Below, piece by piece: positions 14,746 to 60,994 of a stretch of DNA of 64,000 nt (positions are counted from its first letter, which is position 1; every line of letters starts with the position of its first letter). This stretch comes from Chloracidobacterium sp. (GTDB lineage Bacteria; Acidobacteriota; Blastocatellia; Chloracidobacteriales; Chloracidobacteriaceae), in NCBI GenBank assembly GCA_025057975.1, contig JANWUV010000003.1, positions 62,001 to 126,000 of the forward strand, given 5' to 3'. The notes beneath the pieces were generated by a model. The model did no database searches. It saw only the letters and a list, made by a program, of their open reading frames with translations, and was not told where the DNA came from. Both the position numbers and the translations under genes were made by a program.

Positions 14746-17214
14746 ATGACGGCTCTGCTGCTGACACCGCTCGGCGTCTCGAAGCTGGCGGCTTGGAACT
14801 GGAGAGCAGCGTGGAAGTCTCCACAGGTGTGGACGGCTTGGATGACGTTGCTTGCCTTCGGCGTCCTCGCGCTGTGCAGCAGCAAAGTGTACTCGCCGCC
14901 TATACTGCGCTTACCCAAAGCGGAAGCGCGGGCGCGGGCTGAACGTCTCTTGGAACGTCTGCGTCCGCCGGACTTGGCTGACCAACCGCTGGCGGCTTAC
15001 CAAGTGAGCCTGCGCTGTCAGCCTCACCCAATTGACCAAGCCCACTGGGAGTCGGCTTTTCTTGCGCCGGACAACAGTCATCTCTATCGGCTGACGCTGA
15101 CTGGCCGAGGAGAGTTTCGATTCTTCGCGGTGTATCGGCGCATGCCAGCGGCGGAAACGGCGGCTCGTTCTGGTGAGCTCGAACGCTCTACGGCACTTGC
15201 GGTATGGCGGGCGTTTCTTCTAGCCGAAGCCGGGATCGCCCCGCCACCGACCACGGAAGTCCCTCCTGTGGTTCGCGAAAGCCCGTTTCCGGGACGTGGT
15301 CGCGACTACATTCGCCGTTGGAAAACTGGCCATGCGCAGTGGCCCTTCGTCGAGGTGGTTTTTGAAGGGCAAACCTTACAATCATTGGGGCTGACTCAGG
15401 CTGAAGCGCCGCGTCCGGTTGAACCCAACGCCGTCGGTAGGCGGTTTCTTGTCGGATTGTTGGCTCTAGCTCTGTGGCTGCCATGGCTCATTGTGTTTGG
15501 GCGCGGCGTTTTGCAAGGGGCGATGGGATCACGCACCGTTTTCGTCACTGCCGTCGTGATCGCCGCGTCATTTCTACTTTTGCCAAGCGCCTCCATGCTA
15601 ACCGTCGCCGCGCCTTTCGCTTGGCAGGAGCCCGTGATTACAGAGGAAGAGTTTATAGGGTCATTAGACACGACTGACCGAGTGCTGCTGCTCCTGTTGG
15701 GTTTGGTGATGTTTGGCGCGGCGGCGCTGGGCGTCTGGGCGATGAGCTTTGTTTCTCTAGCGGTGACGGAGTCGTATGACTGGAAGCGGCAGCGTCAACT
15801 ACTAGGGGATGTGTATCGGTTGGCGCGACGTGGATGGCTGCCGCCAGAGCAGGTCGTGCGGTTGTGGGTTGGTGGATTGGCCTTAGCACTGTGGGTGTTG
15901 GCAGTTGAAGCCGTTGTTGAGTGGCAGTGTGGCCGTCCAGTCCTGCCTTGGCACGATTTTTCAGCTTGGTCGCAGGAGTTTGCCCTCGGATACTGGCCGG
16001 GTCGGGAAATCATGGTGAAGTGTTTCACTGACGTCTGGATCATCACCGTTTGGCTTCTACCACTGGCGGCGTTTGCCCGTGACCGACTTCGGGATGCTTC
16101 CGCTGCACTGGCGGTTGGGCTAGGTGTCGGACTGATTGGATTGCCCATTTTCGCCAATACTGGGGTGACAGTGATTGGTTATCTGCTCTTGCTTGGCGGG
16201 CTACTCTGGACATTATTCATGTATGGTTGGCCGACGGTGGTTTTCGGCTGTGCACTGATCGGTGGTCTGTCACCGATCCTGTGGTCGCTCCGCTTTCCCT
16301 ATGGCTTCGAGCCGGTGTTCCTCATTGGCGGCGCAGCGGCGGCGGCGCCAGCAGCGCTTGCTTGGCGGCGACCACCGTCACGTCGCACACGCAACGAAGC
16401 GTTCGATCTGGCACCGCGTTACGTACGGGATCGGCTCCGGCTCGAACGGTGGCGCGAAGACTTAGACGTGCGCTGGCTTATTCACTGCAATCTGCTTCCG
16501 CCGTCTGGTTTTCGGGATGCGCAGCGGCGCGTGGCGGCGGAATACGCGCATCTGCCGGAGCAAGGGCGGGAGTGGTTTCTCATCTTGCCGTTGACAGAGC
16601 ACCGTGTCGGCCTAGCTATCGGGGAAGTCAGTGGAGAAGGACTAGAGGCGTCGTTGCTGATGGCGGCTGCGCTGGCGGCCATCAAATCCAAGGCTGCGCG
16701 CCATTCGACCTGTCCAGCGCGGGTTGTTGAGCGCCTCAACGAGTTTCTGTCGCCGCGTCTGCAACGCCTAAATGCGCAGGTGCGGTTACTGTACGGCATC
16801 GCCGACGTGCAGGCTGGGACGTTTACGTACTGCAATGCCGGTTATGTTCCACCGGTAGCGCTCAAGCCGGAACATGACGGCGGCGTTCGCCGACCGGCCG
16901 ACCTGCCATATGTGCTTAATCCACCGCTGCAAAGTCTCACCGGCGGCTGCTGGCGCAGCGACACCGCCTACCTTGAACGGGGCAGTTACCTAGTCCTCAC
17001 CAGCGATTGGGTTGGGGAGTTGTGTGGTTTAGCTCCCGACGCTGAGGCGACGGCTCGGCGAACGGCGGCGTTGTTGGCGACCTTCGGCGAGCTTCCGGCG
17101 CAGGAATTCCCGGCCGCCGTTGTTGGCCAGGGACGCGAGCGCTTACAGCAGCTTCTCGGTGCGCCGCTCAAAGCGCCGAATGCTGAAATTACAGTTGTGT
17201 GCGTTGAGTTTTGA
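14746..17214 (+). CDS. Multi-spanning membrane protein with C-terminal SpoIIE/RsbU-like PP2C phosphatase domain, metal ligands altered
   Basis: 822 residues. One helix near residues 30-45 (TLLAFGVLALC), an extracytoplasmic region to about 225, then roughly eight membrane helices to about 550, then a cytosolic PP2C/SpoIIE-type domain (about 570-822). The fold is recognisable from AIGEVSGEGLEASLLMAAAL, YCNAGYVPPVAL and LVLTSDWVGEL. The acidic metal ligands are changed: the usual Asp of GDVSGKG is Glu (E627), and the usual Asp-Asp near the end is Ala-Glu (A813, E814); only D754 remains. It may be an inactive, binding-only phosphatase or have altered metal use. rlmN and a diguanylate cyclase gene follow on the same strand. 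Confidence 0.78.
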   Translation: MTALLLTPLGVSKLAAWNWRAAWKSPQVWTAWMTLLAFGVLALCSSKVYSPPILRLPKAEARARAERLLERLRPPDLADQPLAAYQVSLRCQPHPIDQAHWESAFLAPDNSHLYRLTLTGRGEFRFFAVYRRMPAAETAARSGELERSTALAVWRAFLLAEAGIAPPPTTEVPPVVRESPFPGRGRDYIRRWKTGHAQWPFVEVVFEGQTLQSLGLTQAEAPRPVEPNAVGRRFLVGLLALALWLPWLIVFGRGVLQGAMGSRTVFVTAVVIAASFLLLPSASMLTVAAPFAWQEPVITEEEFIGSLDTTDRVLLLLLGLVMFGAAALGVWAMSFVSLAVTESYDWKRQRQLLGDVYRLARRGWLPPEQVVRLWVGGLALALWVLAVEAVVEWQCGRPVLPWHDFSAWSQEFALGYWPGREIMVKCFTDVWIITVWLLPLAAFARDRLRDASAALAVGLGVGLIGLPIFANTGVTVIGYLLLLGGLLWTLFMYGWPTVVFGCALIGGLSPILWSLRFPYGFEPVFLIGGAAAAAPAALAWRRPPSRRTRNEAFDLAPRYVRDRLRLERWREDLDVRWLIHCNLLPPSGFRDAQRRVAAEYAHLPEQGREWFLILPLTEHRVGLAIGEVSGEGLEASLLMAAALAAIKSKAARHSTCPARVVERLNEFLSPRLQRLNAQVRLLYGIADVQAGTFTYCNAGYVPPVALKPEHDGGVRRPADLPYVLNPPLQSLTGGCWRSDTAYLERGSYLVLTSDWVGELCGLAPDAEATARRTAALLATFGELPAQEFPAAVVGQGRERLQQLLGAPLKAPNAEITVVCVEF

Positions 17215-17377: not shown

Positions 17378-18466
17378 ATGCGATCTACGCGGGAAACATT
17401 ATCCGGGATCGATTGGTTGGGGCTGACCAGCCGGGAATTCGCCGCGTATGTCGCGGAACGCGGGCTGCCAGCTTACCGCGGGCGACAAATCTTTCACGCG
17501 CTACACCGGCGACTTGTCACGTCGGTTGAGGACATCCACGAGCTGCCGCAAAGCCTGCGTTTGGCGTTGGCTGCGGAGTTGAACCTTGCGCCCCTGCGTC
17601 TGGTACAGGTTTTTGATGCGACCGACGGGACGCGGCGCTACTTGTTCACCGTTCGCGACGGCCACGCCATTGAGACCGTCTGGATTCCCGACGGGCGGCG
17701 AGTCACGCTCTGTCTTTCGTCTCAGGCCGGCTGTCCGATGATGTGCGCGTTTTGTGCGACAGGGACATTGGGGCTGCAACGCAACCTCACGGCCGGCGAA
17801 ATCGTCGCCCAGGTTCTTTATGTACTCCGCGAGGCTGGTCGGCGACCCGAGCCAGCACAGGCGGCGAATGTCAACCTCGTGCTCATGGGGATGGGTGAAC
17901 CGCTGCTCAACTACGAGCAAGTCATGCAGGCGCTCCGCGTGCTGGCTGATCCGCAAGGTCTGCATATCGTTCCTCGCCGGGTGACGCTCTCAACGGTGGG
18001 GATTGTTCCTAAGATCGCTGCCCTGGGCTGTGAGCCAGATCGTCCCCGTTTGGCGGTTTCTCTGACGGCTCCGACTGACGAACTGCGTGCTCGATTGATG
18101 CCGGTCAACCTCACCTACCCGTTGGAGGCCCTGCGTCAGGTCTGCTTAGAGTTTCCCCTGCGCGCGGGAGAACGCATTACGTTTGAATATGTTTTGCTGG
18201 ACGGTGTCAATGACAGTGAGGCCGAAGCGCGCGCCTTGCTGCGCTGGCTATCGCCGTTGCGCGCCCGCGAAGCGGCGAAGGTCAACTTGATTCCGCATAA
18301 TCCAGCGCCGGGTATACCGTTTCGTCCGTCCCCGCCGGAGCGCATCGCACAGTTTCAGGCGGTGTTGCGCGCTAAGGGACTTCCAACCTACATTCGTCGG
18401 CCGCGCGGACGTGATATCTTCGCCGCCTGCGGCATGCTGGCCGCCGCTGGGCTGTCGGCGTCATGA
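17378..18466 (+). CDS. rlmN: Dual-specificity 23S rRNA A2503 / tRNA A37 C2-methyltransferase RlmN
   Basis: A radical-SAM enzyme of 362 residues that methylates C2 of A2503 in 23S rRNA and A37 in some tRNAs. The 4Fe-4S motif CxxxCxxC is present in CPMMCAFCATGTLG, followed by LVLMGMGEPLLNYEQV, the family hallmark. The methyl-carrying Cys near the C-terminus is in RGRDIFAACGML. An AGAGGAG site lies about 10 bases before the ATG. The 163 bases before it contain nothing I can name. Confidence 0.96.
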   Translation: MRSTRETLSGIDWLGLTSREFAAYVAERGLPAYRGRQIFHALHRRLVTSVEDIHELPQSLRLALAAELNLAPLRLVQVFDATDGTRRYLFTVRDGHAIETVWIPDGRRVTLCLSSQAGCPMMCAFCATGTLGLQRNLTAGEIVAQVLYVLREAGRRPEPAQAANVNLVLMGMGEPLLNYEQVMQALRVLADPQGLHIVPRRVTLSTVGIVPKIAALGCEPDRPRLAVSLTAPTDELRARLMPVNLTYPLEALRQVCLEFPLRAGERITFEYVLLDGVNDSEAEARALLRWLSPLRAREAAKVNLIPHNPAPGIPFRPSPPERIAQFQAVLRAKGLPTYIRRPRGRDIFAACGMLAAAGLSAS

Positions 18467-18529: not shown

Positions 18530-20803
18530 GTGTCTCTACGGGTGTGGGTTTCCAAATTGCTCACGCCGGAGTTGATGTATCGACTTCAGGAGTCAGCTTT
18601 GAGCTTATCGCGTCGGTTGGGGGACGCGCCGCTGGCGGTCGCCTTCTTTGACGACGAGCGCTTTCGGCTGCTGACCTCGGTCGGTTATGAGGAGTATGCG
18701 CGCGAAACCCTCGAAGCAACGCTGACCGAACGGTTGGCGACAATTCAGGCGGATCGGCTAACGCCGGTTTCGCGCAGCGCCTTACCCAGTTTTCCGTTTG
18801 CGACGCAAGATGTTCCCACACTGCTGATCCGGCGGTTCACGCTTGATTATCTGCTGTGCGGGGCGTTGTTGGTTGAGTATGCGCAGGCGGTCAATCTCGA
18901 GCAGGCGCTGGACGGCCGCGAACTGGGCTGGGCCTTTTTGCTTCGTGAGAGCGGTTGGCGCGCTCGCTTGACGGAAGCTGAAACCCAGCTTGCCGAACTA
19001 GGCCGCCAGCTGGAGGCGACTCGCCATGCGGTGGAGCGCCTGACGGAACTGGGTGAACAAGCAATCCGCGACCGTGAAAAGTTTATCGCCAACGTTGATT
19101 ATGAACTGCGTGCCCCGCTGACGACGGTTCTCGGCTACTGCGAAATGCTGCAGGACGCTTCGTATGGAGCGCTGACCGATGCGCAGCGCGAGTTTGTGCG
19201 TCATATTGAAGCTGGCGGGCAAGCGTTGCTGCACATCGTGGATGATCTGATGCGCCTGGTGCGGCTTGAACGCGGCGGCGACGTATTAGACATTCGGGAG
19301 TTTTCGGTGGCGCGAATGTTCCAATCGCTCCAAGCGTCCTTTGCGCCAATCGCGCAACGGCGGCAAGTGACGTTGGAAGTGACGCTGGACCCGGCCTGTG
19401 AGATGCTTGTCGGCGACGAGTTGCGCTTGTACGAAGCGTTTTCTCAGTTGCTTGATGACGCGCTGCGCTTCATCCCGCGCGGCGGGATCATTCGGCTGAC
19501 CGGTGAACTACGCCGCATTTCCAACAATATCCAGAATCTCGTGGTGACGCTTCAGGATAACACGACTGGCATCGTCGCTGAGCAACGTCTGGCGACCTAT
19601 CGCAGCCTGACCCACAACGGTGCCGCCGGGCTGCCTCTGCGGGGCGTCGCGTTGGGCTTGAGCGTCACACACCGGATTCTCCAACTCCACGGCGCGACCC
19701 TCACAGTGGAAGGCGATACAACGCGCGGTTGTCGGTTGACCTTTCAGCTACCGCATCGCGTCGCTCCATTACCGGCCGAAGCTCCGCAAGTGGTGATTGT
19801 TGACACCGAGGTTGAAAGCAGCCATCTGTTGCGTAACATCTTGGAAGGCGAAGGCTTCAAGGCGCAGCTTGTTGCGGCGTCCAGCCACGACACCCCTGCA
19901 ACGCTGCACGCTAGCTACTTCGAGCAACTCACTCGCTTACCGGATGTTGTCTTGATTAACGCCGCCCTCGGGCCGGTGGATGGCTACGAGTTGTGCCGTC
20001 TCATCAAGCAAACCGAAGCGACCCGGTATTTGCCGGTGTTGATGTTGACGGCTTCGCCAGAAACGACCGAGAAACTACGTGGTCTTGAAGTAGGAGCAAC
20101 CGAGGTTTTGACCAAGCCGGTCAACCGCAAGGAACTCATCATGCGCGTCAAGGCGCTGATTGCCCAGAAACGCGAATTTGAGGCGATGCTGCGCGCCTAC
20201 CACAGCGCCAAGCACCGCGCCATCACTGACGGCCTAACGGGACTCTTCAACCACGCCTACTTTATGGAAAAGCTGGCCCGGAAAGCGGAGTTGGCGCAAC
20301 GTACAGGGCAGGCGCTTTCCATCATCATGCTTGATGTGGATCGCTTCAAGCACTTCAATGACACCAACGGTCACGAAGCGGGTAATGAGTTGCTCAAGGA
20401 CTTGGCGCGCTTGATGGAGCGTTGTTTCCGGCGCAGCGACCTGCTGGCGCGTTACGGCGGCGAGGAATTCGTAGTGCTGCTGCCGAACACTCCGAAAAGC
20501 CAAGCAGCAATTTTGGCCGAGCGTCTGCGCCGGCGTGTAGCCGAATATCCTTTCGTTGGACGTGAATCGCAACCGGGCGGACAACTCACCATCAGTCTGG
20601 GCGTAGCAGCGATGCCGTCCGATACCGACGACCACAAGCAACTTCTTGAACTCGCCGACCGTGCGCTTTACCGCGCCAAGCAGCATGGCCGCAACCGCGT
20701 CTGCATTGTCGAGGCCGAAGCGACCGGACGCCCGCGCCCCAGCGGTTTCTGGCAAGTCCCCAACCCGCCGGAAGCCGGGCCGCCGCCCCTGCCGTCGGCC
20801 TAA
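18530..20803 (+). CDS. Diguanylate cyclase with degenerate histidine-kinase and receiver modules
   Basis: 757 residues in the order: GAF-like N-terminus (about 20-140), coiled coil (145-185), HisKA-like and HATPase-like regions (185-410), receiver-like domain (420-545), GGDEF domain (565-725). The GGDEF part looks active: GGEEF at 643-647, metal ligand D602 and an intact inhibitory RxxD (634-637) exactly five residues upstream. The kinase parts do not: the phospho-His position is Tyr191 (VDYELRAPL), the N-box Asn is Asp310, and the G1 glycine is Thr (DNTTGI). The receiver's phospho-acceptor Asp is Asn477 (VVLINAALG) while K529 remains. Start is GTG with GGGAGAGG nine bases upstream. c-di-GMP output is likely; phosphorelay is not. 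Confidence 0.88.
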   Translation: MSLRVWVSKLLTPELMYRLQESALSLSRRLGDAPLAVAFFDDERFRLLTSVGYEEYARETLEATLTERLATIQADRLTPVSRSALPSFPFATQDVPTLLIRRFTLDYLLCGALLVEYAQAVNLEQALDGRELGWAFLLRESGWRARLTEAETQLAELGRQLEATRHAVERLTELGEQAIRDREKFIANVDYELRAPLTTVLGYCEMLQDASYGALTDAQREFVRHIEAGGQALLHIVDDLMRLVRLERGGDVLDIREFSVARMFQSLQASFAPIAQRRQVTLEVTLDPACEMLVGDELRLYEAFSQLLDDALRFIPRGGIIRLTGELRRISNNIQNLVVTLQDNTTGIVAEQRLATYRSLTHNGAAGLPLRGVALGLSVTHRILQLHGATLTVEGDTTRGCRLTFQLPHRVAPLPAEAPQVVIVDTEVESSHLLRNILEGEGFKAQLVAASSHDTPATLHASYFEQLTRLPDVVLINAALGPVDGYELCRLIKQTEATRYLPVLMLTASPETTEKLRGLEVGATEVLTKPVNRKELIMRVKALIAQKREFEAMLRAYHSAKHRAITDGLTGLFNHAYFMEKLARKAELAQRTGQALSIIMLDVDRFKHFNDTNGHEAGNELLKDLARLMERCFRRSDLLARYGGEEFVVLLPNTPKSQAAILAERLRRRVAEYPFVGRESQPGGQLTISLGVAAMPSDTDDHKQLLELADRALYRAKQHGRNRVCIVEAEATGRPRPSGFWQVPNPPEAGPPPLPSA

Positions 20804-47281: not shown

Positions 47282-47366
47282 GCCGGGGTGGCGGAATGGT
47301 AGACGCAACGGACTTAAAATCCGTTGCTCCGCAAGGGGCGTGCGGGTTCGAGTCCCGCCCTCGGCA
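47282..47366 (+). tRNA. tRNA-Leu (anticodon UAA)
   Basis: An 85-base class II tRNA. Acceptor GCCGGGG pairs with CCTCGGC (one G-U), discriminator A. The anticodon arm ACGGA-CTTAAAA-TCCGT gives UAA. A long variable arm (GCTCCGCAAGGGGC) and a T-arm GCGGG-TTCGAGT-CCCGC are present. CCA is not encoded (CTCC follows). It lies 4 bases after the RDD gene and 26 bases before lpxK, with no promoter of its own visible. Confidence 0.95.
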
Positions 47367-53171: not shown

Positions 53172-53248
<77 letters not shown>

Positions 53249-60630: not shown

Positions 60631-60994
60631 GGGGATGTTATGGTTTCGACGTGGACAGTATGAGGCGCGTGTGAGGCGTGCCGGGCGACCATGCCGCTCG
60701 TCAAAAAGCGTGGAAAACAATACCTGCCGAAACGCAGGAACTTGCTCTCGCCGCTTAATCACGGCTGAGCCGTCCGCCCATTTGGTCGCCTGTGCCAAAT
60801 GACGCGGGCGTGACGTTCACAGGCTGGCGGTTGTCCTGTGTCCGGGGGATAACCGTGAGAGCGCACCGGGCTGGTGCTTGCGCCGCTTCAGGTCGCTGTT
60901 CCGGCGGCCAAGTACGAGACTAACGGAAGCGACTACGCACGTAGGCTCCACCGCCGAAGGTTCGCGGACGAGGGTTCGACTCCCTCCATCTCCA
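60631..60994 (+). ncRNA. ssrA: Transfer-messenger RNA (tmRNA)
   Basis: 364 bases. The 5' end GGGGATGTTATGGTTTCGACG pairs (GGGGATG) with 3' CATCTCC plus discriminator A to form the tRNA-like acceptor; the T-arm is GAGGG-TTCGACT-CCCTC. CCA is not encoded. The tag frame ends ETQELALAA followed by TAA at 60756-60758. A resume codon at GCG 60708 would give a 16-residue tag (A-W-K-T-I-P-A then ETQELALAA); the resume point itself is uncertain. It rescues stalled ribosomes with SmpB. Confidence 0.95.

Follow-up and report, generated by a model that had tools for sequence, protein, structure and literature searches.

Two-component modules that lack their phosphorylated residues are found at low frequency, with base rates of 0.9% for HisKA domains without the histidine and 2.0% for receivers without the aspartate (PMC12632262). 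A receiver is counted as a pseudo-receiver (PsR/ALR) when at least one of DD1, DD2, D, T and K is missing; the acidic DD2 is gone in about 80% of these domains, and the proline at D+4 is less conserved among them (PMC12632262). Receivers without Asp are enriched beside GGDEF domains (PMC4395418). How pseudo-receivers and pseudo-histidine kinases switch has been stated to be an open question (PMC12632262).

Several described proteins are useful for comparison. DivL is a pseudo-histidine kinase of Caulobacter and further alphaproteobacteria. The Caulobacter protein has Tyr550 in place of His and neither kinase nor phosphatase activity, and it senses DivK~P; its ATP binding is weak and its sensor role has been shown (PMC4211667). 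PleD joins a phosphorylatable first receiver and a second receiver that acts as an adaptor (PMC12632262) to a GGDEF cyclase, where the contacts to guanine come from N335 and D344 (PMC12943098). Degenerate two-component modules also have regulatory roles in RetS and ShkA, and the pseudo-receiver of ShkA binds c-di-GMP (PMC7010744). In the Hypr GGDEF enzymes (GacA, Geobacter) a serine at the base-reading position, together with GGDEF, gives promiscuous enzymes that make cGAMP (PMC6456294). Pseudo-kinases and pseudo-receivers are each already known; in a literature search that reached few subscription journals, no report was found of the two together in one cyclase.

The 64,000-nucleotide stretch of Chloracidobacterium sp. 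DNA analysed here (the window) encodes a 757-residue protein in which a pseudo-histidine kinase, a pseudo-receiver and a GGDEF domain follow one another. By analogy, the best reading is that it would work like DivL plus PleD.

The gene, its product and its orthologues

The gene (18530..20803) starts with GTG and, like all features of the protein described below, lies on the plus strand. Its reading frame is intact in all eight genomes where it occurs. Pfam matches for the four C-terminal domains all exceed the curated cut-offs: a pseudo-HisKA (DHp) domain at residues 182-249 (19073..19276; PF00512, E 4e-14), a pseudo-HATPase_c (CA) domain at 295-409 (19412..19756; PF02518, E 1e-11), a pseudo-receiver at 421-540 (19790..20149; PF00072, E 4e-16) and the GGDEF domain at 564-723 (20219..20698; PF00990, E 3e-49). 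The N-terminal domain matches no Pfam family at a convincing E-value in any of the eight members. When residues 3-185 were modelled alone with AlphaFold2 (pLDDT 83, pTM 0.71), those leading Foldseek matches in the PDB that carry a domain name were almost all to GAF domains (best E 6e-5, TM roughly 0.4-0.5), and on this model residues ~5-130 (18542..18919) are predicted to form a GAF-like sensor domain. A long signalling helix, predicted as a coiled coil, connects it to HisKA (residues ~131-185, 18920..19084; helix 131-184 in the model), with 71-94% identity among the orthologues. The full-length AlphaFold model was too poor for use (pTM 0.30). No signal peptide or membrane segment was evident on inspection of the sequence by eye, and the protein is predicted to be cytoplasmic and soluble.

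Seven full-length orthologues were identified; the six from other Chloracidobacterium genomes are 75-78% identical to the window protein, and the seventh, from a sister genus, 54%. A scan of genome contigs and a search of 396 genomes of the phylum gave no further orthologue beyond these two genera; the genomes of other members of the family encode only REC-GGDEF proteins, of about 345 residues. Two loci considered as relatives with the full kinase-receiver-cyclase layout were rejected: one (L040) consists of two adjacent REC-GGDEF genes, and the other (L047) is an ordinary hybrid kinase with its His. The window genome assembly is 3.52 Mb; the genomes of congeners are divided over two replicons, of which the larger has about 2.7 Mb.

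In all eight genomes the gene is adjacent to rlmN, for a radical-SAM 23S rRNA methyltransferase (17378..18466, plus strand), which ends 63 bp upstream in the window, and the two are likely co-transcribed. The conserved neighbourhood includes no kinase or regulator. Upstream of rlmN the window has a frame (14746-17214) for an 822-residue protein with a hydrophobic N-terminal half and a C-terminal SpoIIE-type phosphatase domain. In one congener (G004) an additional frame of about 1000 residues lies between the SpoIIE-type protein and rlmN, and the SpoIIE-type protein has no match in the fetched rlmN flanks of the other five. Elsewhere in the window are a tmRNA gene (60631-60994; tag peptide AETQELALAA) and genes for tRNA-Leu(taa) at 47282 and tRNA-Glu(ctc) at 53172.

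Conservation within the genus varies with the domain. The GGDEF domain is 88-92% identical and HisKA, the second most conserved, 84-94%, followed by HATPase (71-81%), the receiver (70-76%) and the N-terminal domain (59-69%). For pairs with unsaturated dS, dN/dS is at most about 0.26 in every domain, with the minimum in GGDEF, REC or HisKA according to the pair; HisKA does not exceed about 0.2 where dS can be estimated. For the receiver, the window protein against two relatives gives 0.06-0.11, with dS saturated. Since the identity of HisKA is near that of the cyclase and dN/dS is low, the kinase core appears to be maintained rather than rotting, and the constraint on it is best explained by a role in structure and signalling.

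Lost residues in the kinase and receiver modules

A preliminary description of this gene, made from the window sequence, listed Tyr for the phospho-His, Asp for the N-box Asn, Thr for a G1 Gly and Asn for the receiver Asp, beside an intact diguanylate cyclase. All of the named substitutions are present, but the list was incomplete, with Ala195, Thr426, Val526, Gly481, a weak G2 and Asn619 to be added. They differ in how widely they are shared.

Tyr191 (TAT, 19100..19102) occupies the phospho-His position in 8/8 orthologues, while all 29 other HisKA domains of the window genome have the His. Both His and the N-box Asn are also found in 29/29 kinase domains of the nearest acidobacterial kinases (26 best loci), so that the two sets together give His in all 58 controls. 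Against this and the published base rates, the substitutions go beyond chance. Four residues on, Ala195 (19112..19114) stands in all eight proteins at H+4, which is Thr in 28 of the 29 nearest kinases and which is part of the ExxT/N phosphatase motif. In the HATPase domain, Asp310 (GAC, 19457..19459) replaces the N-box Asn in all seven proteins of the genus; the sister genus has Asn. Thr345 (19562..19564), in D343-N-T-T-G347, is at the first G1 Gly. This Gly is replaced throughout the genus (T, L, A, A, M, M, M), whereas the sister genus keeps it and has Ser at the second G1 Gly. G2 is weakened. Among comparison proteins in the fetched loci, His is present in 40/40, the N-box Asn in 42/42 and the first G1 Gly in 40/43. 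The DHp surface residues E192, R194 and P196 are invariant in the orthologues.

The HisKA/HATPase fold is present with Tyr191 throughout, with the G1 motif DxGxG altered and, in the genus, with the N-box Asn replaced, the pattern of a pseudo-histidine kinase and not of an active hybrid kinase. A DHp core without the His cannot autophosphorylate, and without the H+4 Thr it probably cannot dephosphorylate either. The best PDB profile matches of the kinase module include DivL (E 1.2e-26), and RetS matches about equally. Tyr at the phospho-His position and the DHp and CA folds are kept in both DivL and the Chloracidobacterium protein, as is the local sequence F-x-x-N-V-x-Y-E-L-R-x-P-L-T-T; DivL differs in having PAS domains and the N-box Asn, and in having no receiver or cyclase. 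In trees where DivL alone represented the alphaproteobacterial kinases (with no PleC or DivJ), it joins this kinase module with support of 95/86 under thin sampling and of only 86/65 under denser sampling, on long branches both times.

In the receiver, Thr426 (19805..19807) is at the second metal-binding Asp (DD2), a position that is non-acidic in 8/8 (T, A, G or S), and Val526 (20105..20107), also in 8/8, replaces the aromatic residue that serves Y-T coupling at K-3, which is Tyr or Phe in 66 of 71 other receivers. By the published definition all eight receivers are pseudo-receivers, because DD2 is gone in every one, and with the K-3 aromatic gone as well canonical phospho-switching is unlikely. 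The phospho-Asp itself was lost only in the window species, where Asn477 (AAC, 19958..19960) is accompanied by Gly481 (GGG, 19970..19972) at the D+4 Pro; Asp and Pro are found at these positions in 7/7 orthologues, and at position 477 the comparison proteins of the fetched loci carry Asp in 69 cases and Glu in 4. A loss of the receiver Asp across the clade is rejected on this count. Asp477, Thr507 and Lys529 are kept in all seven orthologues, and in those species the receiver may still be weakly phosphorylated, to judge from these residues.

The alignment of orthologues at positions 191, 310 and 477, proposed in the preliminary description as a check that would refute it if close relatives had the normal residues, thus gives a mixed result: the normal residue is found at 477 in 7/7, at 310 only in the sister genus, and at 191 in none. 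The order of losses runs from Tyr191, Ala195 and DD2 to the N-box and G1 within the genus, and then to Asp477 and Pro481 in the window species. The suggestion that both modules were repurposed with their folds kept holds for the kinase, in which the chemistry is lost clade-wide and HisKA is conserved, but not in the same way for the receiver, where loss of the Asp is not shared. Sensing of a ligand or a protein by the converted modules, as was suggested, is plausible.

The cyclase and its possible product

The receiver and GGDEF domain together have PleD as their best PDB profile match (E 1.1e-72), and the cyclase domain aligns with that of PleD ungapped, at a constant offset of 275 residues. 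With residue roles assigned from PMC12943098, D602, F606, K607, N610, L622, E645, R665, K717 and R721 are kept, as is the I-site. The GGEEF signature (643-647, 20456..20470), the metal Asp D602 and the RxxD inhibitory site R634-R-S-D637 (20429..20440) had all been described as retained, and so they are. Every PleD catalytic residue checked is kept except D344, which corresponds to Asn619 (20384..20386), Asn in 8/8. The residues for the metal, NTP and transition state of a GGDEF diguanylate cyclase are accordingly present with GG[DE]EF, and the guanine-contact Asp is absent. "Intact" therefore needs qualifying at the nucleotide-selectivity residue.

The substitution falls at the same nucleotide-reading position as in Hypr enzymes, which have Ser or Thr with GGDE[FY]; here it is Asn with GGEEF. 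Of 149 Acidobacteriota genomes, 33 contain the Asn pattern (NDxxGHxxGN) and 141 its counterpart with Asp. In the phylum GG[DE]EF is otherwise intact in no fewer than two dozen Asn forms. Because the Asn form is a minority yet recurrent, and GG[DE]EF is otherwise intact, the product is probably still c-di-GMP. Asn619 may nevertheless alter it. A fuller version of this idea, in which the GAF, kinase and receiver parts act as a phosphorylation-free sensor for the cis GGDEF domain and the Asn leads to a product beyond pure c-di-GMP (e.g., 3',3'-cGAMP), seems to us improbable.

A c-di-GMP network is present in the window genome, with five GGDEF domains, four HD_5 (HD-GYP-type) domains and one PilZ match; no EAL match was found. 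Two of the five GGDEF domains are Asn forms and one is a Ser form. The second Asn form (L003, G000:C2:180527-181003, in a 628-residue frame) also has GGEEF, with orthologues in G001, G006, G007 and G009. Ser at the base-reading position with GGEEY or GGEEF occurs at seven distinct loci (L001, L027, L028, L029, L030, L033 and L034), of which L001 (G000:C6:182348-182827) is in the window genome and the other six are in the same order or class. Mutants with Ser and GGEEF have been found inactive, and the combination with GGEEY/GGEEF, likewise inactive in mutants, is reported not to occur naturally (PMC6456294). No c-di-GMP-I riboswitch match was obtained in the genus, and control genomes gave none either. 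The PilB of C. thermophilum binds c-di-GMP (PMC8546689).

Modes of control

The reading we favour, with moderate confidence, is that a DivL-like pseudo-histidine kinase serves as a phosphorylation-independent dimeric sensor and acts through the pseudo-receiver on the cyclase in cis. The GAF-like domain would bind a small ligand or sense redox state, and the signalling helix and dimeric DHp core would pass on the change as a rotation or bend of helices, with no phosphoryl transfer. The change could also be set when a separate response regulator docks at the DHp, whose surface is intact; DivL receives DivK~P in this way. The receiver would link DHp/CA to GGDEF as a conformational adaptor, setting the dimer geometry in the manner of the second receiver of PleD; PleD differs in having a phosphorylatable first receiver, where the sole receiver here is degenerate, and in having no kinase part. 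The GGEEF dimer, subject to feedback from the I-site, would then make a cyclic dinucleotide, c-di-GMP being the most likely, with the direction of control presumed. RetS and ShkA share the regulatory use of degenerate modules, with kinase output there and cyclase output here.

Control in trans, as in PleD or WspR, is the alternative that we take most seriously, unlikely as it is: another kinase would phosphorylate Asp477 in the seven species, the cis core would be a scaffold, and the input would have been lost in the window species. Retention of Asp477, Thr507 and Lys529 in 7/7 orthologues is consistent with this, as is the match of the NCBIfam PleD model to residues 421-726 (E 4e-75, below the equivalog cut-off). 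Against it, DD2 is a direct ligand of the metal and is non-acidic in 8/8, the same loss that marks most pseudo-receivers (about 80%; PMC12632262), and K-3 is Val in 8/8. Regulatory decay, with kinase and receiver as drifting relics and a constitutive cyclase limited only by I-site feedback, would explain the stepwise losses from Tyr191, Ala195 and DD2 to Asp477 and Pro481. It would also fit the receiver of the window species, which has 8 of that species' 15 lineage-specific changes, compared with 11 of 81 for the other species together (Fisher p 0.0016, for a domain chosen after looking). HisKA is nonetheless the second most conserved domain, the frames are intact in eight genomes and the receiver dN/dS is still low (the two comparisons with saturated dS), so that decay is doubtful at best.

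A RetS-like decoy, in which the pseudo-kinase heterodimerises with another kinase or sequesters its regulator, chiefly to control the pathway of that kinase, with the cyclase as a second output, draws on the RetS match, about as good as that to DivL, and on the invariant E192, R194 and P196 of the DHp surface. No partner was found and the conserved neighbourhood is free of kinases and regulators; we consider such a role very unlikely. Hardly to be expected is a sequencing or assembly error at Asn477, which would make the window receiver like those of its orthologues. A single base in one genome separates AAC from GAC, but Gly481 (GGG, two bases away from Pro) and six other lineage-specific changes lie in the same receiver, and these eight together favour real divergence over a one-base error.

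The combination of a pseudo-kinase and a pseudo-receiver in one soluble protein places a measurable enzyme at the end of the chain. Among the orthologues the losses are graded by nature, with Tyr191 in all, the N-box and G1 changes in the genus only, and the loss of Asp477 in the window species only. With this series it can be tested directly whether an output is still governed by relay modules that are dead, with no need for a partner to be found first. The protein also bears on the control of c-di-GMP in a phototroph, one whose PilB serves as a model for the binding of c-di-GMP in vitro.
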